Shown: positions 1-17,382 of the stretch, in pieces | Layout: the number at the start of each line of letters is the position of its first letter | Numbering within the stretch: position 1 is the first letter of the stretch | Assembly: GCA_009845645.1 (NCBI GenBank) | Contig: VXZF01000537.1 | Location: 535-18,296, forward strand | Direction: 5' to 3' | Length of the DNA stretch: 17,762 nucleotides | From: Gemmatimonadota bacterium | GTDB taxonomy: Bacteria; Latescibacterota; UBA2968; UBA8231 | The notes under the pieces: model-generated | The model's input: the letters and a program-made list of their open reading frames with translations, nothing else | Told to the model about the DNA's origin: nothing | The model's database searches: none | Position numbers and translations under genes: made by a program

Positions 1-1212
1 CTCCAAGGTCCGGCGCAGCGCGGCATCGGCTTGCTGGTAGTTTTTGCTCAATAACAAAGATCGGCCTAGACCAAAGGCGGCACGCACCGAAGTAGAGTCG
101 AGAGCAATAGCCGCGGCAAAAGATTGCTGGGCCGCGGCAAAATCCCGCTCGAGGAGATGAGTTTCCCCCAATAGCGAATGGGCTTCGACATGTTCGGGCT
201 CTACGCCGAGGATCCGTTCTAGGAGGAGGCGAGCACTTTGTGGGTCATTTCCTTGTAAATGCACAATACACAAGCTGAGGTACGCGTCAACAAAAGAAGA
301 ATCGATCTCTATCGCTTGGGAGAACGAAGTAATTGCCTGCTCTCGTTTGCCTTTGAGCAGGTAGATTTGCCCCTGATCATAGTGGCGCTTGGCCGTGCTC
401 AGGCGCTGGTAACTTTGCAGTGCTTTGGCTGCTTCGTCGGCTCTTTCCATCCGGTTGAGGATTTGGTGATGCAAATAGTGGGCTTGGGCGTGGCGCGGTT
501 CTTGGGCGAGGGCTTGTTCTAGGGCAGACATGGCTTCTCGATGTCTCCCCGCTTGGGTTTGCAAGGTGGCCAAGGCGACGAGAGCGGCTACGTGCTGGGG
601 TGCCAGCACCAATAGTTTTTTGTATCCAGCCTCGGCTTCGGCGGGTCTATTGCTGCGCCCGAGCAATTCGCTGCGGTGGTAGAGGGCATCTACAAAATCA
701 GGCTCCAAATCCAGTGCTGCTTCAAAGGCGGCAATGGCCCCGGCGAAATCCGCCGTAGCTCTCATAGATTTACCGAGCTGATAGCGATAGAGCGCCTTTT
801 CTGGTTCCAACTCAATGGCGCGCTGATACTGGAGTATAGCCTCGGGGTAGCGGTGTTCGGCACTAAGGGCATCCCCTAAGACAAAGCGAAAGGAACCATT
901 GAGCGAATCGAGTTCTACAGCCCGTTGAAGGGGAGGGATAGCTAGCCCGTACTCGCCTAGGCGAACGTGGGCTAGCCCCCAGTTAAAGTGGACTGAGGGA
1001 AGTTTGGGCACCCGTTTTGCGGCTTGGTGCAGAACGGTCAGCGCTTTGCGCGGCTGACCCTGTTTTAAAAAGAAAGCCCCTTGGTTGACCAATCGCGCGC
1101 CTTCTGGATCCTGCGCTATAGGGCGAGTCTCTTCGGGAGGGGGGGTATCAGTGCTGCAAGCATATAGGAGCAGGACAACCCAAAAGACGCTGCAGCAGCG
1201 GTGAATAGACAT
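1..1212 (-). CDS. TPR-repeat lipoprotein (3' end beyond window)
   Basis: I translated the reverse strand from the ATG at 1212: 404 codons stay open to the window edge, so the C terminus is missing. Residues 1-19 form a short lipoprotein signal with a hydrophobic stretch and an L-Y-A-C lipobox (Cys19), followed by an acidic/proline linker. The Tyr at -2 makes the lipobox slightly atypical. From about residue 40 the protein is back-to-back tetratricopeptide repeats, about ten 34-residue units of the form AxxxYQRAIELEP and AIxxFxQAIEID. TPR lipoproteins of this kind act as protein-protein scaffolds on the periplasmic face of a membrane; the partner cannot be told from sequence. It is transcribed divergently from the MFS/spermidine-synthase-like gene, which also carries TPRs, so a shared complex is possible but is inference. 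No clear Shine-Dalgarno sequence precedes the ATG. The gene call is firm; the function is only a fold-level assignment. Confidence 0.9.
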   Translation of the reverse strand, partial: MSIHRCCSVFWVVLLLYACSTDTPPPEETRPIAQDPEGARLVNQGAFFLKQGQPRKALTVLHQAAKRVPKLPSVHFNWGLAHVRLGEYGLAIPPLQRAVELDSLNGSFRFVLGDALSAEHRYPEAILQYQRAIELEPEKALYRYQLGKSMRATADFAGAIAAFEAALDLEPDFVDALYHRSELLGRSNRPAEAEAGYKKLLVLAPQHVAALVALATLQTQAGRHREAMSALEQALAQEPRHAQAHYLHHQILNRMERADEAAKALQSYQRLSTAKRHYDQGQIYLLKGKREQAITSFSQAIEIDSSFVDAYLSLCIVHLQGNDPQSARLLLERILGVEPEHVEAHSLLGETHLLERDFAAAQQSFAAAIALDSTSVRAAFGLGRSLLLSKNYQQADAALRRTLE

Positions 1213-1251
1213 CGCGGACTCAATCCAGTTGTCGCGGTCCCTTTTTTCTTT

Positions 1252-1281
1252 TTACCATACATAGGGCTACGGCAATATAAT
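1252..1281 (+). promoter_or_regulatory. Candidate sigma70-type promoter of the MFS/SpeE-like gene
   Basis: A perfect TATAAT lies at 1276-1281, with TTACCA at 1252-1257 (18-bp spacer) or TTTACC at 1251-1256 (19-bp spacer) as a weaker -35. The predicted start near 1288 leaves a leader of about 24 nt before the ATG at 1312. This also argues against the upstream GTG at 1201 as the gene start, because that codon lies upstream of the promoter. Confidence 0.45.
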
Positions 1282-1302
1282 CCCCGATCTGGAAAGCAGC
1301 AA
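1274..1302 (-). promoter_or_regulatory. Candidate promoter of the TPR lipoprotein, overlapping the opposite one
   Basis: On the reverse strand TTGCTG (1302-1297), a 17-bp spacer and TATATT (1279-1274) form a promoter-like pair. The -35 matches at only three positions. The -10 shares its bases with the forward TATAAT, so the two polymerases would compete for the same site. Confidence 0.3.
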
Positions 1303-1311
1303 CGACCTACT

Positions 1312-4122
1312 ATGGCTACAGGCGCTCGTACTGTGCAGCTTCTGATTGCGCTCATCTGCTTTTTCCTCTCTGGCTTTGCGGGCCTAGTGTACGAGGTCGT
1401 CTGGATCCGCCAAGCTTCATTGCTGTTTGGCTCCACTACCTTTGCCCTCAGCACAGTCCTAGCGGTTTTCTTCCTAGGCCTAGCCTGCGGTTCGTATCTC
1501 TTCGGTCGCTACGGTCAGCGGACCGGCCATCCTCTGCTCGTTTTTGCTCTGGTTGAAATCGGCTTGGGGCTTTCGGCGCTAGCCAGTCCATATGCCTTCG
1601 AATTGGCAGACATCCTCTACGGCACAGTTTATCGGTCCCTAGCCGGGTACGCCATTTTGCACTTCCTGACTCGGATTGTTCTAGTGGGATTCGTGATCTT
1701 GCCGCCGACTGTTCTCATGGGTGCCACCCTCCCCCTCTTCTGCCGTCAGTTTGTGCGCAGTGATGCTAAAATTGTCCGTTCCGTCGGCTTGCTCTACGGC
1801 ATCAACACCTTGGGCGCAGCCTTGGGTTGTGTCTGCGCCGGATTTGTCCTTTTGCCTGAGCTAGGCTTTCTGGACACAGTGCGCCTTGGCGCCGTTCTGA
1901 ACATACTCGTAGGCATCGTCGCAGGATCTCTGCCAATCGCCAGAAGCGGACTGGCTCGACCTCGGCTTCTAAGGCCTGAAGAGAGAGGTCACTGGGGTGT
2001 ATTTGCGCTGTTTTTTGCCGTTGGCTTTGTAGCGTTGGGAAGCGAGGTGCTGTGGACGCGCTATCTGGGACTTTTAATCGCTAATACAGTATATACTTAT
2101 ACGCTGACCTTGGCCGTAGTGCTAGTGGGTTTAGTGTTGGGAAGCGTGCTCGCCTCCCTGTTCTTTGACAGGACAGGACATAGAGCACGGTATTTCGGCG
2201 CTCTCCAGGTGCTTTTGGGGTTAGTGGTACTCCTCCTAATGATGCTCCCATCGGACATCTGGCGACGTCTAGGGGAGGAGTGGTGGATTTATGCCGTTTT
2301 ACTGCTGCCTCCTGGTGTTTTAGGAGGTGCCTCTTTTCCGCTGGCGGTGAGAATGGTGGTCGAGGACGCATCCGCAGCGAGTGGTGGCACGGGAAAAATC
2401 GCCGCAGTCAACACATTGGGGGGCATCGCGGGGGCGTTGGCGATCGGTTTTGTGGGCCTGCCATTCTTCGGTCTGGAGAGCAGTCTTCTCTTCATCACGG
2501 GCACGAGCTTGGCTGTCGGGTTCGCGGCGTGGATCTGGCTCGACCGCACATCTACCCTAACCGTTAAAGCGGCATTCATAGGACTCTTCTCGTGCGTGTG
2601 GCTCGGAGTTTTCTGCCTGCTGCCCACCCGTATTCCCGCCGACTTTCTGGGCGAGCGGGAAGAGCTTGTCGACTTCCGCGAGGGCTACGGCTCCAACTTG
2701 GCGGTCATCCGCCAAGATCGTGGACTTCAACTCGAGATCAACCGCTGGTGGCAAGGCAGGGACCGCAAGACACATCAAGTAATGGCGGCCCATGTCCCCA
2801 TGTTGTTGCATCCCGAGCCCAAGCGAGTCCTCTTGGTGGGCATCGGCACCGGTCAGACTGCGGCTCGCTTTCTGCTCTACCCGATTGACCGCCTAGAGTG
2901 CGTCGATATCGAACCTACCATCTTCAGTTTTATCCGCCCTCATTTCGACTCCCGTTGGATGGAAGATCCCAGAGTCAAACTGATTGGTGCCGACGGCCGC
3001 AACTATCTGCGCCACACCCCCTCGACGTACGATGTGATTTCCCTCGAATTGGGCCAGCTTTCCCGTCCCGGTGTGGCATCCTTCTACACGGCCGACTTCT
3101 ATAGCCAAGTGAAAAAACGGCTGCGTTCTGGCGGTTTTCTGGTCCAATTTGTCCCCTTATCCCTTTTGACCACCGACCATTTCCGCAGCACTGTGCAGAG
3201 CTTTCTCGAGGCTTTCCCCCACAGCCTGTTGTGGTACAATACTTCAGAATTGCTGCTCATCGGCAGTGGACGGGATTTCGCCATTGATCGAGCCATTCTC
3301 GAAGGACGTCTATCCAACGAAAAAATTCGCCGGGATCTAGAGTACAGCCACTGGGGAGGCCCCCTCTACTGGCTCAACCGACCACAGGTCTTTTTGGGCA
3401 GTTATCTGATGGGATCTGGCGGTTTAGCCGAATTGGCGAATGAAGCCCCTAGCTACAGAGACGATCGGCCCGTTCTCGACTACGCGGTCGCTCGCGCCTT
3501 TGTACATCGGACAAACGCACTCCCGACACTCGATCTTTTGCACAAGCATTTAGACCCCCTCGCCACCTTGATGCCTATTGGGTCCGATGAAGAGAGGACC
3601 ATTGAGGAAATACGGGCCAAAAACCTGCGGGAAATTGCCGCTAGCGCCGCCCTCCGGCAAGCCAAAGTCCTAATCGCCGTCCGCAACTATCTGGACGCCT
3701 CAAAGCTATTGGCAGGCACCCTGCACCAACTCCCCGAGCACCTAGTGGTTAGGCGCACACTAGCGGATGTACTAATGCGCTTGGGCCGCTTTGCAGAAGC
3801 GAGGGCTCATTACACCCAAGTCGTAGAAATCGCCCCGCAAGATGTACAGGCCCTAGATGGCTTGGCTCTGGCATTCCACCAGTTGGGGCATCTCGACGAA
3901 GCGATCCACCACTACAAGGCTGCACTGCGGCTACAGCCCGACCGGGCGGAGACCTGTAGCAATCTCGGAGGAGCACTAGCCCGGCGAGGAAAGCTAAAAG
4001 AAGCCCAGTTCTATCTCGAAAAAGCACTCCAGCTCAAAGCCGACTTCGCCGATGCCAAACGCAACCTCGCCCAAGTACAAGCGGCCTTACAGCGAAGGGA
4101 GAAATCGCGCACTTCGCCGTGA
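1312..4122 (+). CDS. Fused polytopic membrane / spermidine-synthase-like protein with C-terminal TPRs
   Basis: Length is 936 aa from the ATG at 1312. The frame opens at a GTG at 1201, but that would overlap the divergent gene and add 37 residues; the family begins with a motif like the FLSGFAGLVYEVVWIRQ seen just after Met1 here. Residues 1 to about 460 hold many hydrophobic helices (MFS-like). Residues ~470-720 form a SAM-type Rossmann domain related to SpeE: VGIGTGQ at 509-515, the acidic nucleoside motif D-I-E-P at 532-535, A-D-G-R at 560-563. Where active aminopropyltransferases have D-[ST]-x-D-P, this protein has DVISLELGQ (574-582), so the catalytic Asp is absent. About three TPRs follow (~812-928). 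Such fused MFS/spermidine synthase proteins are widespread in uncultured bacteria and their substrate is not established. I infer an inner-membrane protein acting on, or sensing, an adenosyl-type ligand, not a polyamine synthase. The stop is 29 nt from the convergent selenoprotein gene, and no terminator is visible between them. Confidence 0.9.
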   Translation: MATGARTVQLLIALICFFLSGFAGLVYEVVWIRQASLLFGSTTFALSTVLAVFFLGLACGSYLFGRYGQRTGHPLLVFALVEIGLGLSALASPYAFELADILYGTVYRSLAGYAILHFLTRIVLVGFVILPPTVLMGATLPLFCRQFVRSDAKIVRSVGLLYGINTLGAALGCVCAGFVLLPELGFLDTVRLGAVLNILVGIVAGSLPIARSGLARPRLLRPEERGHWGVFALFFAVGFVALGSEVLWTRYLGLLIANTVYTYTLTLAVVLVGLVLGSVLASLFFDRTGHRARYFGALQVLLGLVVLLLMMLPSDIWRRLGEEWWIYAVLLLPPGVLGGASFPLAVRMVVEDASAASGGTGKIAAVNTLGGIAGALAIGFVGLPFFGLESSLLFITGTSLAVGFAAWIWLDRTSTLTVKAAFIGLFSCVWLGVFCLLPTRIPADFLGEREELVDFREGYGSNLAVIRQDRGLQLEINRWWQGRDRKTHQVMAAHVPMLLHPEPKRVLLVGIGTGQTAARFLLYPIDRLECVDIEPTIFSFIRPHFDSRWMEDPRVKLIGADGRNYLRHTPSTYDVISLELGQLSRPGVASFYTADFYSQVKKRLRSGGFLVQFVPLSLLTTDHFRSTVQSFLEAFPHSLLWYNTSELLLIGSGRDFAIDRAILEGRLSNEKIRRDLEYSHWGGPLYWLNRPQVFLGSYLMGSGGLAELANEAPSYRDDRPVLDYAVARAFVHRTNALPTLDLLHKHLDPLATLMPIGSDEERTIEEIRAKNLREIAASAALRQAKVLIAVRNYLDASKLLAGTLHQLPEHLVVRRTLADVLMRLGRFAEARAHYTQVVEIAPQDVQALDGLALAFHQLGHLDEAIHHYKAALRLQPDRAETCSNLGGALARRGKLKEAQFYLEKALQLKADFADAKRNLAQVQAALQRREKSRTSP

Positions 4123-4151: not shown

Positions 4152-5048
4152 TTACCGCACGAGTGTCATCTTGCGGCTCTCTGCTCTATTCCCGCTACTC
4201 AAACGGTAAAAGTAAATGCCGGAGGGTACCGGCTGCCCTCCGGCGTCCCGACCTGCCCAATTTACCCTATGACGACCGGTCTGCAACCGCCCAACCACCA
4301 GATTGGCCACAGGCCGTCCCAGTACATCGAAAACCTGCAAATGCACTTCTGTTTCACCAGACAGGCTAAAAGGGATAACCGTGCCGCTATTAAAGGGATT
4401 GGGGTAATTCCTCTCCAACTCAAAATTCCACGGTTGCCCCTCCGACATTTCCTCCCCTGCGGTTGCCTCTAGCTGCTCCAGCCCTTTATCTCCAGCTAAA
4501 AGCGCTGAGCCTAAGTTACCTAGCGCCAGCTCGATGTGCTGGCGGATAACCTGTTCGTCGAACCGCCGGGCAACAACGCCCACCGAACGATAGCGCAGAA
4601 TCCCCTCGTGGTCGATCACCGCATAGTTGTGCTGGGTAAAACCATAGAGAGCCCCTACTGTACTGGCCTGGAGAAGAAGAGGGTAAGTCGTTTCTGTTCT
4701 CTGGCGAAAACTCAGGTCCACCTGTCGGCTGATGCCATCCGCTACATCCACGCCAATCAAGACGAACTCCTCCCCTTTAAAATCCTGCCAAATCCGCTCT
4801 ATCTTCGCGGCCTCCGCGAGACAGTGACTTCAGATGAAACCAAAAAAGTTGATGAGGACCACCTTGCCGCGGAAGTCGTTCAGAGACACATAGTCGCCCT
4901 CTAGCTGCTGCAAAGTGAAATCCGGCGCTAGATCGCCCACTTTGGGCACTTGCCCCATCGTCCCTTGGACGCTTAGCAGCAGGGCGGTCAGTGGCCCCCA
5001 GAAAACACCGCTGTTCACCCTCACACAGTAGTTCATCACCTTGACCAT
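4152..5048 (-). CDS. Exported redoxin selenoprotein (UxxC) with T9SS-type C-terminal domain; in-frame TGA read as Sec
   Basis: Reading through the TGA at 4832-4830 gives one 298-residue protein. Residues ~1-26 are a signal peptide (hydrophobic GPLTALLLSV, cut near TMGQ). Residues ~27-185 are a TlpA/AhpC-like thioredoxin fold: VGDLAPDFTL, then GKVVLINFFGFI-U-SHC, where U73 and C76 align with the CxxC of NFWATWCPPC-type redoxins, then IGVDV and YAVIDHEGILRYRS. Residues ~205-298 are a FlgD-like / T9SS type A sorting domain (NYPNPFN at 214-220, FDVLGRPV, SGIYFYRL, KMTLVR). The usual cis-Pro before the VID strand is replaced by H140/N141. Start choice: ATG 5048 is preferred; TTG 5078 and ATG 5036 are in frame, and none has a convincing ribosome site. 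Inferred role: thiol-disulfide or peroxide chemistry in the periplasm or at the cell surface. A nonsense pseudogene is the alternative, but the TGA position, the SECIS-like hairpin and the intact frame beyond it argue against that. The gene is divergent from a PpiC/SurA-like lipoprotein. Confidence 0.82.
4218..4244. repeat. Perfect 9-bp inverted repeat near the 3' end of the selenoprotein gene
   Basis: GCCGGAGGG (4218-4226) and CCCTCCGGC (4236-4244) flank a 9-nt loop. It lies inside codons for the GGQPVPSG part of the sorting domain, about 65 nt before the stop. No T-run follows on either strand, so it is not an ordinary terminator. It could stabilise or attenuate either convergent transcript, or be a by-product of Gly/Pro codons. 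Confidence 0.4.
4799..4824 (-). promoter_or_regulatory. Bacterial SECIS-like stem-loop after the UGA
   Basis: Five nucleotides after the UGA the mRNA can form CUGUCUCGCGG (4824-4814), loop AGG (4813-4811), CCGCGAAGAUAG (4810-4799). This gives 11 pairs (one G-U) with a single bulged A. The apical loop begins 17 nt after the UGA and has a G at its second position. Both properties agree with the bacterial SECIS pattern as I know it: small apical loop, G in the first two loop bases, loop about 16-37 nt after the UGA. It would bind SelB. The hairpin lies in coding sequence and was folded by eye, not with an energy model. Confidence 0.75.
4830..4832 (-). other. Predicted selenocysteine codon (UGA)
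   Basis: The TGA falls in the reading frame of the redoxin, between GFI and SHC, at the first position of the redox CxxC. The following residues (SHCLAEAAKIERIW) are normal for redoxins just after the active site. TGA is a genuine stop elsewhere in the window (4120-4122 and 15185-15187), so a general code change is not the explanation. Confidence 0.8.
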
Positions 5049-5113: not shown

Positions 5114-6760
5114 ATGAAACACCTCCTACTAGCCTGCTTGGTTTTTTCGACTAGCTGCAGCCCTCCCGAAGAATCGCTCGTGGCGGAAGTTGGCCCGCAC
5201 CAGATCAGCGCACGCCTGTTGCACCTCTATGTGGAAGAACTGCCCGACGGGCTACGCACCCAAAAGACAGGCGATGAGGCCCGCCAGTACTACCTCCAAG
5301 CCCTGATAGACCGCCGACTTTTGCTGTTAGAGGCCCGTTCCCGAGGACTCGATACAACCGGCGATTTCCAAAATTCAGTCCAAGACGCCGTCAATGCTCG
5401 GGTCCGGTCGATATATAAATCACAGGAAATAGCTTCTAAAGTCAAAATATCAAATGACACAGTACGTCGCTATTTCGAAAAGGAAGACTACGGTCGAGAG
5501 CGTCTGCTCAACGCCATCAAAGTAGGGAGCCGGGCTGCCATCGACACCGTTCTTCAAGAACTGAGGGCGGGCCGTCCCTTTGCGGAGGTCGCCCGGGCTC
5601 GCTCGCTGGATGAGCGCTCGGCCGAACGGGGTGGCGAGTTGGGCTTTATCGGCCGGGACCAGCTCGAGTCGCTTCACATCCCACCGGTGGTCTTCAAGAC
5701 CCTGCCTCAAGATCAACTCTCAGAGCCACTACCCGCCGGTTCGGCCTGGCATATTGTGCGCTTTAGTGAAGACCGCTCGGCCTCTTATGAGAAATACCAA
5801 GCGAGGATCGCCAGTCTACTCTACCAAAAGCGCCTCGCCCAGGTAGAGGCCGAACACTTGGAGCAATTGCGCGATTCCTTCAAAGTGCGCCTCAACCTGT
5901 CTGCCCTGCGCGAGTTGGTCAACGCCTATCAGGCAAAGCAACCCACGCTCATAGAAGGGAATTCGACGGCTTTATACACCTATAAAGACGGCGAAATAAC
6001 CTTGGGTCAGGTCCAGGAATTTTTGCGTCAGAGGAATATCAGTTTTGGCCTTGCCGACAGCGCTCAAGCTGTGGTCACCCTGAACCGGTATTTTTTGGAG
6101 GCCCATCTGATCCAGGAAGCAGCCCGCAAAGACGGTTTTTACCAAACGCCCGAGATGCAGAAGTTCGTCGAGCGCACCGCGAATACCAAACTTCTTGAAA
6201 TCGTGAGAAAGAGCGTCATAGCCGACCTAATTGACCTCTCCGAAGAAGACGTGCGCCACTATTACGACACCCATTTGGAGACCTTCCGCCACAGCGAGGC
6301 CATATGGATTGAGGAAGTACTGCTCCCTACTCAGGCCGACGCCCTACAGGTCAAAGCCCAAATAGAAGCAGGTGCGCCCTTTGATCAATTCGTCGATAAG
6401 AGCTTGAGGGCAGACGCACAAAAGTACAATGGACGATATCATTTCCACATGCTGGGAAGAGCCCGCTATCCCGTGCTTGTACCCGCTGTTTTCCAAGCCC
6501 AACAGGGCCAACTTGAAGGTCCTTTGCAAGTAGAGGGAGGCTACTCTGTATTCCGCGTCCTAGAACGGGAAGAAAGCAACGTCGAACCTTTTGAAACTGC
6601 TCAGCGGCGGGCTCGGGCACTAGTTCGTCTAGAGCGGGAGACCCAAGCGCTAAATGCCTTTCTGGTGCAACTGAGAAAAAAATATGCTGACCAGATCAAA
6701 ATCTACCCCGACCGCCTCAAGGGAGCAGTGCCCGACTCCCTATTGCTAGCCCAAAATTAA
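5114..6760 (+). CDS. Lipoprotein with two parvulin-type (PpiC/SurA-like) domains, probably non-catalytic
   Basis: Length is 548 aa. Residues 1-15 are a lipoprotein signal ending in S-T-S-C (Cys15). Residues ~20-125 are helical and resemble the SurA N-terminal chaperone region (ALIDRRLLLLEARSRGLDT). Parvulin-like domain 1 spans ~128-225 (GGELGFIGRDQL, WHIVRF); domain 2 spans ~391-490 (GYSVFRV). In active parvulins the domain opens with a [R]-H-I-[LV] strand and closes with G-[YF]-H-I. Here the opening strands read NAIKVG and WIEEVLL, and the second closing motif is GYSVF. Only the domain 1 closing His is kept, so proline isomerase activity is doubtful and a holdase chaperone role is more likely. 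Anchored in the envelope and divergent from an exported redoxin, it probably handles unfolded exported or outer-membrane proteins. The ribosome site is weak (AGAAGA, 5101-5106). The domain assignment is firm; the lack of activity is inference. Confidence 0.85.
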   Translation: MKHLLLACLVFSTSCSPPEESLVAEVGPHQISARLLHLYVEELPDGLRTQKTGDEARQYYLQALIDRRLLLLEARSRGLDTTGDFQNSVQDAVNARVRSIYKSQEIASKVKISNDTVRRYFEKEDYGRERLLNAIKVGSRAAIDTVLQELRAGRPFAEVARARSLDERSAERGGELGFIGRDQLESLHIPPVVFKTLPQDQLSEPLPAGSAWHIVRFSEDRSASYEKYQARIASLLYQKRLAQVEAEHLEQLRDSFKVRLNLSALRELVNAYQAKQPTLIEGNSTALYTYKDGEITLGQVQEFLRQRNISFGLADSAQAVVTLNRYFLEAHLIQEAARKDGFYQTPEMQKFVERTANTKLLEIVRKSVIADLIDLSEEDVRHYYDTHLETFRHSEAIWIEEVLLPTQADALQVKAQIEAGAPFDQFVDKSLRADAQKYNGRYHFHMLGRARYPVLVPAVFQAQQGQLEGPLQVEGGYSVFRVLEREESNVEPFETAQRRARALVRLERETQALNAFLVQLRKKYADQIKIYPDRLKGAVPDSLLLAQN

Positions 6761-6998: not shown

Positions 6999-9900
6999 AT
7001 GAGACGCCCGAGTTACTCCTCTCACTGCCCTGCCCTGATTCTCACCTTTTTGCTCGGCCTGATCCTCGTGCCCCCCCAGCCTACTGAAGCTCAGAAACGG
7101 GGATACCGGATCGCCGGCAACCAAATCATTGTCAACTCCCCAGCCCACTGGGAGCGTTGGAGTATGCCCACACATGCCGTAAACATACTCCCCTCCGGCG
7201 GCGTTCACCCCCACTTCTCCCGCTCCCGATTCAATGTCCTAGACGACTTGGAGACCTATACGCGTCGCTTACCAGAACTTAGGCGCAAGAAAGGTCAGAC
7301 CGCCGTCTTAAATATCGACAGCACCGAAACGCTGGATATCTTCGGCAACGTCATACTCGATCGCAAGAAAAATCCCCTCTACACCCATCTATCTCGCATA
7401 GGTATCAGCCGCGTTGGATCCAATCCCAGGGCAGCGGCCAATATTCTGGATGGCGACCCCAATACCTTCTGGGAACCCGATTTCAACGACCCCATAGAGG
7501 ACTGGTGGGTCGAGGTGGACCTCGGCCGGAGCCTGCCCGTCGACGAGTTGGTCTTAAACTTTGTCGATGAGTCGTTGGGCGATCCCTTCCGCCAGTTCAG
7601 AATATTGAGTGCCCCTTTCCAAAAAATTATTAACCAAGAGGTGAACGAAATTCCCTTTCGCCGCGAAGGCGGCACCAAAGGCTCCAACGAGGACCAGCGG
7701 GTGTTCTCTTTCCACCTGGACCAATTCCAGGCCGACCCCAATTGGATTGGGGAAACCGTCCAGGTAGTCCGCATTGTGGTAACCGATTCCAAATTTGGCC
7801 GGGGCAAATTGATCTCAGAAGAGGAATGGTCTGCTCTGGACCGGGCGGATCGGGGGGATGTTGTCCACTTTATTAAAAACCAGCAGGGGTTCGAAGAACC
7901 GGTTGAAAAATCTGTCTACGACGACCTGTCGCCCGAACGCCAAGGCAGAATAGAGCACTACATCCGCGAGCGGCCTCGGCTGGCCGACATCCAAGTCTGG
8001 GGATTTGGGGACAATCTTGGCCCGGGGCTCGTAGAAGGGGGCGGCTCGGCCGCCTTCCATGGGGCCAACGATTCCTTTTCTCCGGCCCCGGCGTTTGACG
8101 GAGATGGAGGCTCCAACTTTATCCACCTAGTCTGGTCTCCGACGGTGGACCGAGGAGTTCTGTTCGTGGATATGGGGGCTACTTTCTGGTTGGACACCTT
8201 CCGCATGTCCTCCTCCCTGCCTCGACTTTTGATCGATGGCTATATTCTGCGCGGCTCGGACGGGTCGCGCGATTCTAGCGGTCGGATCAAATGGCGACGC
8301 ATAAGTGATCCGGCCCGAGAACATAACATGACAGATCGGTTCGAGCACATGATGGACGTGTACCAGCCCCCTCCCAAAGTACGATTTCTAGAAGTAATCA
8401 TCGTCTCCGATGACCCCCGCCGCCGGGGCGGTTATACCGCGGGTCCGAATGTTTCCGAATACCAACTCTTCTCAAATGGCTATCCGGCTGCAGTAGAATT
8501 GGTCTCGGATCTGATAGAACTGCCGGGGACGCGAAATTTTGGCGGTATCACTTGGGAAAGCGAGACTCCGCCAGGGACCACGCTGGAGGTGCGCACCCGC
8601 ACGGGCGATATGTTGGCCAAGGAAACCCGCTATTTCGACAAAGGTGGTACGGAAATTACCGCCGACGCCTGGAAGAATCTCATCGGCAGTTTTAAAGGTC
8701 CGGCGGATACCACCTTTATCCCGACGAGAGGTTGGAGCCCCTGGAGCCGGGCCTACCAGAACCCGGGGGACCCGGTGACCTCTCCTGGGCTGCGGAAATT
8801 CATGCAGATCCAAGTCAAATTGCTCACGACCGATCGCAATGTCGCCGCCTCCATCCAATCCATCGGCGTTGAGCTGGCTACCCCGGTGGCCGAACTCATT
8901 TATGCCGAAGTGTGGCCCATTGATGTTCTCAATCCGGGCATCGTCGATACTTTTGAAGTATTTATCCAACCCAATTTTATCGAAAGCCCCTCTAGAGCGC
9001 GCAGTACTGGGTTCGATGAAATCCTGCTGACTAAGCCCGCTTCCCAAAGCATGGAACTCCTTGAGGTGGGCCTAGACACCGATCCCCAGACCGAGAGGGA
9101 AGACCAAGTTTTCCTTCCCACTGAAGATGGAAGTTTCGTCGCTGGAAACGGCGAGTTGCTCCAGTTCTTGGGTCCCCCCACGGGTTCCGATTCCATCTGG
9201 GTGCAACTACCCACTCCACTCCATAGCCTCGCCGATTTGCCCAAAATCTATAACAAGATCACCACAGAAGGGGATCAAGTACCAGTAACAGGAGACGGCT
9301 TGCTGCTCTCGGGGGATTCTTACGGTTTGCTCGATGACGAGGAAAAGGGAGATATCCTCTATTTCGACACAGAGGGCAACTCCATCGATCAGGCCGCCTA
9401 CCTAGCGCTCGCAGAGGAAGAGCGAGGCGACATGCGCTACCTTAGACTGCTGAACGGGGATGGGGCTCAGTTTCCCTTCGACGAGGTGGGCGATTCGCTT
9501 GATGTTGCTGCCTACAACCGCCTCTCCAGCAGGGAAAAAGGCAATATAGTTGGCCGTGGCCCGTTGGTGCGGCTGCGCTATAGGGCACCGGTCTTTCTCA
9601 ATGGCACTACGTTGCGCCTAGCAGTACGCAATACCAGCAGCGGCAGTGATGCACCATGGCAGAGCGTCGCTGCCGGCGATGCGACTTCTTTGGTGGGGAG
9701 CAATTCCCTTTCTATCAATGTGCCATTGGAGAGCAAGCCTATCGATAAATTTAGCCTAGACCCCAATCCCTTCACCCCCAATGGGGATGGCATCAACGAC
9801 GAGATTGTGATTCGCTTCTCCATCTTCAAAATAACTACCAGCCGCCAAGTGAAGGTGAAGATTTTCACTCTGGATGGCCGCTCTATATGGGAGACGACGC

Positions 9901-10058
9901 AGATTCTCGACAGCGGCCACGTTTCAATTCGCTGGTCCGGCGAAGACCGCAACGGCCAAAAAGTGGCACCCGGGCTCTACCTCTGCCAGCTAGATCTAGA
10001 TGTAGACAACCAAGCAGGCGGGTCCACCCAAACCCGTCTGCTTTCCGTCGTCTACTAG
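6999..10058 (+). CDS. Secreted discoidin-like protein with FlgD-like / gliding-type C-terminal domain
   Basis: Length is 1019 aa. The signal peptide spans ~1-31 (LILTFLLGLILV, cut near TEA-QKR). The first discoidin-like (F5/8 type C) sandwich is at ~140-335 (NILDGDPNTFWEPDF, WWVEVDLGRSLPVDELVLNF, RLADIQVWGFG). A second is at ~340-500 (APAFDGDGGSNF, VRFLEVIIVS). A W-rich beta module follows at ~515-610 (LEVRTRTGD, GWSPWSRAY). The C-terminal domain at ~919-1019 has NPFTPNGDGINDE, a VKIFTLDGRSIW strand and APGLYLCQL, as in FlgD-like and T9SS/gliding C-terminal domains. Discoidin domains usually bind glycans or surfaces. An ~18-residue repeat interrupts the first discoidin domain and recurs later in the protein. 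Shared architecture with the 15265 gene shows paralogy. I infer a cell-surface or extracellular adhesin-like protein; its ligand is unknown. Confidence 0.85.
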   Translation: MRRPSYSSHCPALILTFLLGLILVPPQPTEAQKRGYRIAGNQIIVNSPAHWERWSMPTHAVNILPSGGVHPHFSRSRFNVLDDLETYTRRLPELRRKKGQTAVLNIDSTETLDIFGNVILDRKKNPLYTHLSRIGISRVGSNPRAAANILDGDPNTFWEPDFNDPIEDWWVEVDLGRSLPVDELVLNFVDESLGDPFRQFRILSAPFQKIINQEVNEIPFRREGGTKGSNEDQRVFSFHLDQFQADPNWIGETVQVVRIVVTDSKFGRGKLISEEEWSALDRADRGDVVHFIKNQQGFEEPVEKSVYDDLSPERQGRIEHYIRERPRLADIQVWGFGDNLGPGLVEGGGSAAFHGANDSFSPAPAFDGDGGSNFIHLVWSPTVDRGVLFVDMGATFWLDTFRMSSSLPRLLIDGYILRGSDGSRDSSGRIKWRRISDPAREHNMTDRFEHMMDVYQPPPKVRFLEVIIVSDDPRRRGGYTAGPNVSEYQLFSNGYPAAVELVSDLIELPGTRNFGGITWESETPPGTTLEVRTRTGDMLAKETRYFDKGGTEITADAWKNLIGSFKGPADTTFIPTRGWSPWSRAYQNPGDPVTSPGLRKFMQIQVKLLTTDRNVAASIQSIGVELATPVAELIYAEVWPIDVLNPGIVDTFEVFIQPNFIESPSRARSTGFDEILLTKPASQSMELLEVGLDTDPQTEREDQVFLPTEDGSFVAGNGELLQFLGPPTGSDSIWVQLPTPLHSLADLPKIYNKITTEGDQVPVTGDGLLLSGDSYGLLDDEEKGDILYFDTEGNSIDQAAYLALAEEERGDMRYLRLLNGDGAQFPFDEVGDSLDVAAYNRLSSREKGNIVGRGPLVRLRYRAPVFLNGTTLRLAVRNTSSGSDAPWQSVAAGDATSLVGSNSLSINVPLESKPIDKFSLDPNPFTPNGDGINDEIVIRFSIFKITTSRQVKVKIFTLDGRSIWETTQILDSGHVSIRWSGEDRNGQKVAPGLYLCQLDLDVDNQAGGSTQTRLLSVVY
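7824..7964 (+). repeat. Coding repeat, copies 1 and 2 (first block)
   Basis: Residues 276-292 (EWSALDRADRGDVVHFI) and 304-322 (KSVYDDLSPERQGRIEHYI) share the pattern [YW]-x-x-L-x-x-x-[DE/R]-x-G-x-[IV]-x-[HY]-[FIY]. The block lies between the VRIVVTDS strand and the RLADIQVWG strand of the first discoidin-like domain, where the family normally has only a short loop. Confidence 0.55.
9315..9557 (+). repeat. Coding repeat, copies 3 to 5 (second block)
   Basis: Residues 773-790 (DSYGLLDDEEKGDILYFD), 797-815 (DQAAYLALAEEERGDMRYL) and 835-853 (DVAAYNRLSSREKGNIVGR) repeat the pattern A-Y-x-x-L-x-x-x-E-[RK]-G-[DN]-[IM]. The DNA of the copies is clearly diverged, so this is an old protein-level repeat and not a recent duplication. 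Confidence 0.6.
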
Positions 10059-15264: not shown

Positions 15265-17382
15265 ATGCTTAAGAATACAGTATCCTCAAGACAGGTCATT
15301 TTAATTGGGATTGGAGTCCTGTCCCTCTGCCGTTGGGCGGTGGCGCTGGAGACGGTGAGTCTTGGCGAGAACGGCTCCCTCAACTGGCGCGGTGAAGGTT
15401 CGTCCTCGGTGGAGACTATCGAGCCTCAGTACCGATCTCTTTTCCAAGACAAAAGCTTGCCGGGAGTGGAACTGGATGTGGGAAACTCGCCCGGCAATTT
15501 GATCGAGTTTGAGAGCGACCAATTCCCCGATAGTATTCATCCTCTGCGCATTCCAGATGGCGAGAATATCGCCAATACCGCCCTGAAACGCGGAGGTGGT
15601 ATAACCGCACCCAATGTCTTTGACTTGGGCGGCTTCGCCGCCGGCATTTTTGATGCCAACGACCTGCGGCTCACCTTGGAGGAACTCATCGAAACGAAGG
15701 ACGGCGGCGAAATAAAAGCGTTCGAACGCAATAATTACAATGCCTTGGGAACCCTAATATTTATCGAGTTGGGGGGACTTTTTGGGGTAAATCGCGTTCG
15801 CTTCTATCCCCGCAATACGGTTTTCCCCTCGCCTACCACCCCATTCCAAAACGATTTTTTGCGGGCCTTTGAACTGTTTACCAACGACGGCAGCCAGACC
15901 GAAGGAGGCAATCGCATCTGGGAGCCACTGCTCCTAGAACCTGATAACGTGAATCCAGTTGTTGATGTAATCATAGATCCACCGCGCCCTGTCAAAGCCC
16001 TGCGCTTGCGGGCGACGACCACGGTCAACTACGAGATCGACGAGTTTGAGGTGTTCGGTACGGGCTTTTTGTCCCACGCCGAGTATATTTCACCTATTTT
16101 CGATGCGGGCCAACCTGCGGTGTGGAACGTACTCCGCTGGCAGGAAGAAGCAATTGGCGATCCGGCCTTTTCCAATATCCAAATTCGCACCCGCACAGGT
16201 AGGGATACCAACCCATTTGTCTTTACTCGTCTGCTCTACGGCCAGCGCAATCCCACAGAAATTTCGCTCTCGGTAAATGACCCGGAACAGGAAATGGATT
16301 TGGCAGAGTACAAATCACTGCCGCTCGACGACGAATTGGGCCGCCGATGGGAGCACGGACCGGTTCGGGACGATCTAGTCAACTGGAGTCCGTTCAGCAC
16401 GCCGTTTCCCGCCAGTGCAGCCAACGATACGGCGGGCTCACCCATTACCTCACCCGGACCGCGGCGCTATTTTCAGTTCCGAGTACTTTTCAATAGCAGC
16501 GATCTGGATGCAGGGCGGGTGCTCAAGAATTTGAGTTTTGACGTGCTGGCACCCCCACTAGCCGATGCCATTATCGGCGAAATTTTTCCCCGGGATGTAC
16601 CGGTTTCCCAGAGTACGTCCTTCACCTATGCCCTGCGCACCGTGGCTCAATCCGACGGCTTGCTCGGTTTTGACACAGTGGAGATTTCCACCGCCGGCCA
16701 AGTGGAAAGCATCGACAAGATAGAAATGAGGGATTCCAGTGGCCAAGTTATCGCTGAGCGGGCTTTTTCTGGTCTAGATGATTCTTCTATTGAGGATGGG
16801 TTCCAGATCGTCTCGGTATCTCCTGCCAGTTTTTCGGTGCGTCTGCCGCCGGTGACAGAAGATAATATTGTGATTCTCCTCCGCTTCCAGACCGGAGTCT
16901 TGACCTACAGCACAAACTTCACTGGTTCGGTCCAGCTCTCCACTGAACCAGGGGCCTCGCAGGCCATTATTTCGGGCGATGCCGTTTCGTTGGGTGCAGG
17001 GGACGAGGCCGACTTATCCGGTACCACCGTGCTGAGTCCCTCGGTACTCGAAAAGACCCAACTGCTCGACCAGATACTTATCGAGCCCAATATCTTCAGC
17101 CCCAACGGAGACGGAGCTAATGATGTGATGGGGATGCGCTACAATCTGCTATCCCTGAGTATCGTCCGACCCGTGGCAATTGGGGTATACGATCTAAGCG
17201 GACGACAGATCCGGGTCATCCACGACGGACCCGAGGCCAATGGGCAGTACACGGACAAGACCTGGGACGGCCGCAATGAGCATGGGCAGCTAGTGCCGCC
17301 GGGACTTTATGTCGTGCACATCAGAGTCAAGGGAGACGCCAAGGTCGAGGAAAAGGCCCACATTGTCGGAGTGGCCTACTAA
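15265..17382 (+). CDS. Secreted discoidin-like protein with FlgD-like C-terminal domain (paralogue of the 6999 gene)
   Basis: Length is 705 aa. The start is fixed by GAGGAG at 15254-15259, 5 nt before the ATG. The signal peptide spans ~1-28 (VILIGIGVLSL, cut after RWAVA). A discoidin-like sandwich at ~145-270 ends in a YEIDEFEVFGTGF strand. The next module (VLRWQEEAIGD, IQIRTRTGRD, VNWSPFSTPF, SPGPRRYFQF) matches in order the ITWES, LEVRTRTGD, GWSPWS and SPGLRKFMQI module of the 6999 protein, and ADAIIGEIFPRDV matches AELIYAEVWPIDV. The C-terminal domain at ~604-705 has EPNIFSPNGDGANDV, IGVYDLSGRQIRV and PPGLYVVHI. It is thus a shorter paralogue with one discoidin domain and no clear second repeat block. 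I infer an extracellular, surface-bound protein delivered through its C-terminal domain; the ligand is unknown. Confidence 0.85.
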   Translation: MLKNTVSSRQVILIGIGVLSLCRWAVALETVSLGENGSLNWRGEGSSSVETIEPQYRSLFQDKSLPGVELDVGNSPGNLIEFESDQFPDSIHPLRIPDGENIANTALKRGGGITAPNVFDLGGFAAGIFDANDLRLTLEELIETKDGGEIKAFERNNYNALGTLIFIELGGLFGVNRVRFYPRNTVFPSPTTPFQNDFLRAFELFTNDGSQTEGGNRIWEPLLLEPDNVNPVVDVIIDPPRPVKALRLRATTTVNYEIDEFEVFGTGFLSHAEYISPIFDAGQPAVWNVLRWQEEAIGDPAFSNIQIRTRTGRDTNPFVFTRLLYGQRNPTEISLSVNDPEQEMDLAEYKSLPLDDELGRRWEHGPVRDDLVNWSPFSTPFPASAANDTAGSPITSPGPRRYFQFRVLFNSSDLDAGRVLKNLSFDVLAPPLADAIIGEIFPRDVPVSQSTSFTYALRTVAQSDGLLGFDTVEISTAGQVESIDKIEMRDSSGQVIAERAFSGLDDSSIEDGFQIVSVSPASFSVRLPPVTEDNIVILLRFQTGVLTYSTNFTGSVQLSTEPGASQAIISGDAVSLGAGDEADLSGTTVLSPSVLEKTQLLDQILIEPNIFSPNGDGANDVMGMRYNLLSLSIVRPVAIGVYDLSGRQIRVIHDGPEANGQYTDKTWDGRNEHGQLVPPGLYVVHIRVKGDAKVEEKAHIVGVAY

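Follow-up and report, generated by a model that had tools for sequence, protein, structure and literature searches.

A TGA-interrupted redoxin gene of Latescibacterota very probably encodes one selenoprotein with an export signal and a type IX-type sorting tail

Results

Organization of the locus

The window, a stretch of 17,762 nucleotides from contig VXZF01000537.1 of a Latescibacterota genome (GCA_009845645.1), carried on its minus strand a frame of 298 residues with a proper final stop when one TGA was read as selenocysteine (Sec) (Table 1). This TGA, at codon 73 in the context GFI-U-SHC, was the lone interruption of the frame and replaced the first Cys of a redoxin CxxC motif, with Cys76 as the partner. 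Re-reading of the DNA agreed with the earlier note, made from the sequence alone, which had placed a TGA at exactly this Cys in a frame otherwise open. The same note had claimed a complete NYPNPFN...KMTLVR domain, and NYPNPFN...RKMTLVR was found at the C-terminus of the read-through protein. Ordinary gene callers had been expected to split the gene, and standard ORF calling did break the frame into ORFs of 82 and 202 amino acids.

Table 1. Features of the redoxin locus (window coordinates)
Feature	Position	Strand	Basis
Undivided CDS, predicted UxxC redoxin selenoprotein, 298 residues through TGA read-through	5048-4152	minus	
In-frame TGA, predicted to be read as selenocysteine, UxxC position 1, partner Cys76	4832-4830	minus	
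SECIS-like hairpin, 6-bp stem (4819-4814 with 4810-4805), loop AGG (4813-4811)	4819-4805	minus	
Signal-peptide-like stretch, residues 1 to ~33, with basic, hydrophobic and short polar end parts	4950..5048	minus	by eye
AhpC-TSA/Redoxin domain, TlpA/ResA-like thioredoxin fold, residues 36-165	4554..4943	minus	profiles, PDB matches, model
T9SS type A sorting/FlgD-Ig-like C-terminal domain, residues 215-298	4155..4406	minus	Pfam, NCBIfam, model
Divergent neighbour, PpiC-type rotamase domains, lipoprotein-like start (by eye)	5114..6760	plus	
Convergent neighbour, spermidine-synthase-like and TPR domains	1201..4122	plus	

Both neighbours of the redoxin gene were kept at five close orthologue loci (L020-L024) among the 15 loci compared for synteny, and the other 10, which had shorter flanks, showed neither. 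The genomes of these five orthologues were labelled Latescibacterota or Latescibacteria (four) and Gemmatimonadota (one). Elsewhere in the window, two large proteins (6999-10058 and 15265-17382) ended in NxFxPNGDGxND-type tails, which we take to be of the CHU_C/gliding kind and perhaps further T9SS-like cargo.

Conservation of the in-frame TGA

When the read-through protein was searched against 25 genomes of the order, 202 matches were obtained, and 23 of them lay over the redoxin part (E ≤ 1e-20); the others listed were tails on many other proteins, and the tail-only matches among those listed contained no stops. Exactly one internal stop, always TGA, was present in all 23 redoxin matches, and the DNA of all 23 was re-read and had the TGA at the UxxC position. 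Six of these matches were close orthologues with 86-100% identity, the window included, and the remaining 17 shared 38-55% identity. Such complete retention indicated that the in-frame TGA was more than chance.

The TGA could in principle be a true stop in a gene that is degraded or wrongly assembled, so that the 82-aa piece, the 202-aa piece or neither would be made. The downstream piece is present as a protein in public collections, and the TGA base rests on the assembly. However, the TGA recurred in all 23 redoxin matches of the order, each open in frame before and after it, four of these matches came from genomes of about 6 Mb assembled as one contig (G010, G011), neither piece held the whole fold, and relatives carried Cys exactly there. 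We consider a true stop very improbable.

Across the phylum (64 genomes, E ≤ 1e-12), 53 matches were obtained, with one TGA in 38, no stop in 14 and a TAA in one. Fifteen of the TGA matches were outside the order; 12 were read (G044, G057 and G058 were left out), and the TGA stood before the same Cys in 12 of 12. One stop-free match (G016) came from the same family as the window. From the 14 stop-free matches six loci were taken, and five aligned over residue 73 (L090 gave no alignment); these distant relatives, with about 30% identity, had Cys in L086, L088, L089 and L091 and Ser in L092. The redoxin match with TAA rather than TGA (G060:C85:26017-26448) is possibly a frameshift or a pseudogene. 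Paired nearby TGA-redoxins were seen at L080, L081, L082 and L084, in other families of the class; relatives of these have Ig-like repeats and dockerin/EF-hand-like stretches where a T9SS tail would be. A single 3-kb contig (G005:C331) carried two distinct putative Sec redoxins, L042 and L057, one without a complete tail.

The protein homologue search returned 4327 matches, from which 120 listed homologues were counted. All 30 listed homologues that covered residue 73 had Cys at both 73 and 76, and 28 of these 30 contained a Por_Secre_tail domain; the architecture of a redoxin with a sorting tail is thus ordinary when it carries Cys. The other 90 began downstream of residue 73, and 72 of them began at residue 97 or 100 of the window protein, which is where a gene caller would restart after the TGA. 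We infer from these starts that the 90 are TGA-split genes, kept in databases as headless fragments without the active site. The earlier note had looked for Cys or Sec at residue 73 in homologues, and this was borne out by the 30 listed covering homologues and the 23 order matches, with the one distant Ser (L092) as the exception.

A conserved SECIS-like hairpin downstream of the TGA

The earlier note had pointed to 4790-4835 as the place for a SECIS element, and a SECIS-like hairpin was found within this range, at 4805-4819. Counted from the UGA, positions +11 to +16 paired with +20 to +25, and the loop started 16 nt past the UGA. The bacterial SECIS model has a loop of 3-9 nt, a stem of 4-16 bp, a G among the first two loop positions, a distance of 16-37 nt from the UGA and an energy of at most -7.5 kcal/mol (PMC13188914). 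The window hairpin lay within all of these bounds, with its AGG loop, 16-nt distance, 6-bp stem and core energy of -9.0 kcal/mol.

The hairpin alignment contained the 23 order sequences in 17 distinct rows. The five pairs from +11/+25 to +15/+21 were standard in 17 of 17 rows and hence in all 23 sequences. The pair +13/+23 was G-C in 12 rows and U-A in five, a double change that sets one subclade apart and may have arisen only once. The pair +16/+20 was unpaired in five rows, which gave a 5-nt CGUGC loop there; this subclade loop started 15 nt after the UGA, 1 nt outside the 16-37 nt of the model. An additional pair, +10/+26, formed in nine of the 17 rows. None of 500 shuffles reached either the covariation score or the cells-paired measure, and both fell when the partners were slid; two further counts, pairs changed on both sides and distinct pair types, were not unusual, as 136 of 500 shuffles reached each of them. 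A second clade (12 sequences, 11 distinct) had a GGUC loop beginning two bases later, with four pairs changed on both sides. Its covariation score was again reached by 0 of 500 shuffles, the other two counts by 13 and 70 of 500, and 72.7% of its cells were paired. The hairpins of both clades agree, fully or nearly so, with the bacterial SECIS model (PMC13188914).

In the window itself, the 45-nt energy was -15.9 kcal/mol against a mean of -8.1 (sd 2.9) under synonymous resampling, with 0.66% of resamplings as low. For the 19-nt core, 5.8% were as low, and a perfect 6-bp stem arose in 11%. Synonymous change in the hairpin among the six close orthologues was not significantly lower (1/9 against 62/213 variable, p=0.45), the shared stem was missed by six of the 23 single-sequence minimum-energy folds (L030, L031, L035, L054, L057 and L063), and Rfam gave nothing over threshold at the hairpin, with two matches far under their cut-offs. 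The case for the hairpin is carried by the comparative evidence rather than by the single sequence.

Selenocysteine machinery

The assembly of the window genome consisted of 769 contigs and was 75% complete with 1.3% contamination. Its tRNA-Sec scored 69.3 bits against a cut-off of 47, with the next match at 40.8, and ARAGORN agreed (anticodon tca). The tRNA-Sec model was also over its cut-off in five of 14 control genomes, so passing by itself is weak evidence; the window match stood 22 bits above the cut-off. A selA match of 556 bits was found, and among the controls only E. coli was over this cut-off (1/14). The selD match (378 bits; L058, G000:C142) had its own in-frame TGA, which makes selenophosphate synthetase a probable selenoprotein of this genome too. 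For selB, a C-terminal fragment cut by the start of contig C185 scored 123.8 bits against a family cut-off of 242.25 and held the SelB-specific β-barrel and winged-helix domains. Another SelB match, on contig C35, was considered as the N-terminal half; by eye its ORF encoded elongation factor Tu and lay next to an EF-G-like ORF, which leaves the C185 fragment as the one selB sequence. The genes selA and sprA, the latter of the type IX system (T9SS), shared contig C425, which argues against stray contamination. The machinery named by the earlier note was thus recovered as far as tRNA-Sec, selA and selD are concerned, and selB as a fragment only.

TGA-redoxins occurred in 27 of the 64 genomes. 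A selA match was present in 27 of these 27 (in G005 as a fragment under the cut-off), and tRNA-Sec was over its cut-off in 25, with G001 and G014 missing. Eighteen genomes lacked a selA match at E ≤ 1e-60, and none of them had a TGA-redoxin. Two genomes, G025 and G027, had no selA and weak tRNA-Sec matches of 48-49 bits.

Conservation implies read-through and leaves the residue unnamed, and a different amino acid might accordingly be inserted at the TGA, such as Trp carried by a suppressor or near-cognate tRNA. Against this stand the Cys at residue 73 of all 30 listed covering homologues, the presence of tRNA-Sec, selA, selD and part of selB in the genome, and the use of TGA as an ordinary terminator, which ends seven of the 23 read-through frames. 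Another amino acid is even less probable than a true stop. Judged from these sequences, it is near-certain that residue 73 is selenocysteine, and SelB with Sec-tRNA(Sec) would almost surely be what decodes UGA73, directed by the hairpin just downstream. The two annotated pieces very probably belong to a single redox protein that contains selenium and has both an export signal and a T9SS-type tail.

The redoxin domain

The redoxin part scored over the gathering cut-offs of both AhpC-TSA (PF00578, 59 bits) and Redoxin (PF08534, 43.1 bits). An AlphaFold2 model built from 47 sequences had a mean pLDDT of 81 and a pTM of 0.55, and the relative placing of its two domains was uncertain. The pLDDT was 89-97 in the redoxin block, 83-93 in the tail and under 50 at residues 187-211, and the N-terminus was of low confidence. 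In the model, residue 73 immediately precedes helix 74-90. The best PDB folds were a Bacteroides putative disulfide isomerase, ResA and a Geobacter thioredoxin-family protein. The protein resembles ResA in fold (1su9_B, target-normalised TM 0.88), and ResA, TlpA and DsbE in the position of the two redox residues. It differs from these three by Ile72 and by its extra tail; WCxxC proteins have Trp in place of Ile72. Its score with the ResA model of NCBIfam (NF002854) was 52.4 bits, under the cut-off of 170. The usual cis-proline place of ResA and TlpA, as inferred from the 3kcm alignment, was occupied by His140, and Pro was present there in none of the 47 aligned rows, so ResA-like behaviour cannot be assumed. 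We limit the TlpA/ResA-like label to the predicted fold and do not claim membership of ResA/TlpA.

Sec73 and Cys76 of this TlpA/ResA-like redoxin would form a fast dithiol-like redox centre outside the cell. Thiol-disulfide exchange appears the most likely reaction, by a modest preference, with peroxide reduction as the alternative. A selenol has a low pKa and a low potential, general knowledge that favours the reductase direction. The protein might instead be chiefly a peroxidase of the AhpC/Bcp kind: AhpC-TSA was the top Pfam match, and AhpE-type peroxiredoxins were among the fold matches. The nearest solved sequences and folds were, however, thioredoxin-family, ResA- and DsbE-like proteins, and the UxxC occupies the site of the peroxiredoxin TxxC motif. 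Thiol-disulfide exchange is retained as the preferred reaction, and a chiefly peroxidatic role seems unlikely.

In one order match (L038:91-2007, minus strand), the putative Sec redoxin was followed by a PF00144 serine-hydrolase domain and a FlgD-Ig/T9SS-type tail in a read-through frame of 639 residues.

The export signal and the sorting tail

The C-terminal tail was over the cut-offs of FlgD_ig (PF13860, 33.2 bits), Por_Secre_tail (PF18962, 28.8 bits against 27) and the NCBIfam model for the T9SS type A sorting domain (TIGR04183, 39.6 against 23). As candidate T9SS type A cargo (TIGR04183/PF18962) it passes both of these cut-offs, and here the cargo would be a selenoprotein. By regular-expression scan, 19 of the 23 read-through frames contained an NPFN-type tail motif, and 17 of these were complete to the stop; of the two exceptions, L039 was cut by its contig and L057 lacked the remainder of the tail. 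L036, L037 and L041 were tail-less putative Sec redoxins (3/23), and L063 ran into masked bases. In five tailed relatives that were scanned, FlgD_ig was over its cut-off and Por_Secre_tail was under it or absent; the window protein therefore has a stronger claim to the T9SS label than its paralogues do. Three proteins of the other clade had HYDIN/DUF1573-type Ig domains, with EF-hand or dockerin over the cut-off in two of the three.

SprA was over its cut-off in all 25 order genomes, including that of the window, and PorU in 22 of 25; neither was over the cut-off in any of the 14 controls. In the window genome, 75% complete as it is, the PorU model gave tail-domain matches only. The N-terminal signal would take the protein across the inner membrane, and the C-terminal domain would likely direct it to the T9SS (SprA, PorU), to be released or anchored outside the outer membrane.

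A selenoprotein that stays in the periplasm, and whose C-terminal domain serves structure or binding as a FlgD-like Ig module, has to be weighed against this route. The higher score of PF13860 than of PF18962, the FlgD_ig-only profile of the five tailed relatives, the three tail-less Sec redoxins and the lack of a PorU hit proper in the window genome all agree with it. On the other side, TIGR04183 was passed, the listed tail matches sat on many other proteins, and SprA and PorU were widespread in the order. A periplasmic location is rather improbable, and export by the T9SS is preferred. Of the exported, perhaps surface-anchored selenoenzyme proposed in the earlier note, the sorting domain stood (TIGR04183/PF18962, with SprA and PorU in the order); the surface location is a prediction, and PorU was unseen in the window genome.

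Taken from sequence evidence, the whole explanation, a single extracytoplasmic selenoprotein exported by the T9SS with a Sec73/Cys76 redox centre, is highly likely. The analysis shows the frame, the conserved TGA, the Sec/Cys exchange, the machinery, the covarying hairpin and a predicted fold, whereas we infer that Sec is incorporated in vivo and that the protein is secreted and located at the surface, as well as its substrate, electron donor and redox direction. A wider proposal, in which we place about half our confidence, is that Latescibacterota use the type IX system to display a selenoenzyme family on the outside of the cell, with the redoxin constant and the tail swapped by lineage, and that Sec acts beyond the outer membrane in an extracellular redox circuit. 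The swapped tails would be T9SS-type Ig domains in the window family and HYDIN/DUF1573 Ig-like repeats with EF-hand/dockerin-like ends elsewhere, once with PF00144 in between. If this is true, Sec works away from the cytoplasmic thioredoxin system. The survival and function of Sec beyond the outer membrane, and its reductant there, become testable.

Relation to known proteins

The earlier note described UxxC as an established Sec redox motif, and UxxC selenoproteins of PF00578 and PF08534 are indeed catalogued in the available text of two reviews (PMC13188914, PMC9312934), so the kind is already known. Those predicted bacterial proteins, the Prx-like thiol:disulfide oxidoreductase (PF00578) and the "Redoxin family protein" (PF08534), have the same domains and the same UxxC; compared by description only, they differ in that no sorting tail is mentioned in the available text (PMC13188914, PMC9312934). 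No selenoprotein with a type IX sorting tail and no selenoprotein study of Latescibacterota was found in the literature searched, as far as its text was available and with subscription papers and preprints outside the search. Within that literature, the statement that Sec with a C-terminal sorting domain is not a described architecture stands. Two papers considered as reports of a selenoprotein with a T9SS (PMC13055991, PMC12016528) were unrelated in their available text. A Latescibacteria genome was reconstructed in PMC8318568, and the selenoproteins in the available text of that paper belong to a deltaproteobacterium. If the present reading is true, this would be, to our knowledge, the first selenoprotein family to carry a type IX sorting signal.

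The listed Cys redoxins with Por_Secre_tail have the same domain order, with CxxC in the same column and 31-39% identity in the rows listed; they differ in having Cys instead of Sec, and for this reason their genes are annotated whole. The named sources of these listed proteins were Candidatus Marinimicrobia and Balneolaceae (two). A closer Sec/Cys exchange was seen with the Cys protein P0075, which was 77% identical to L037, a putative Sec protein of the order.
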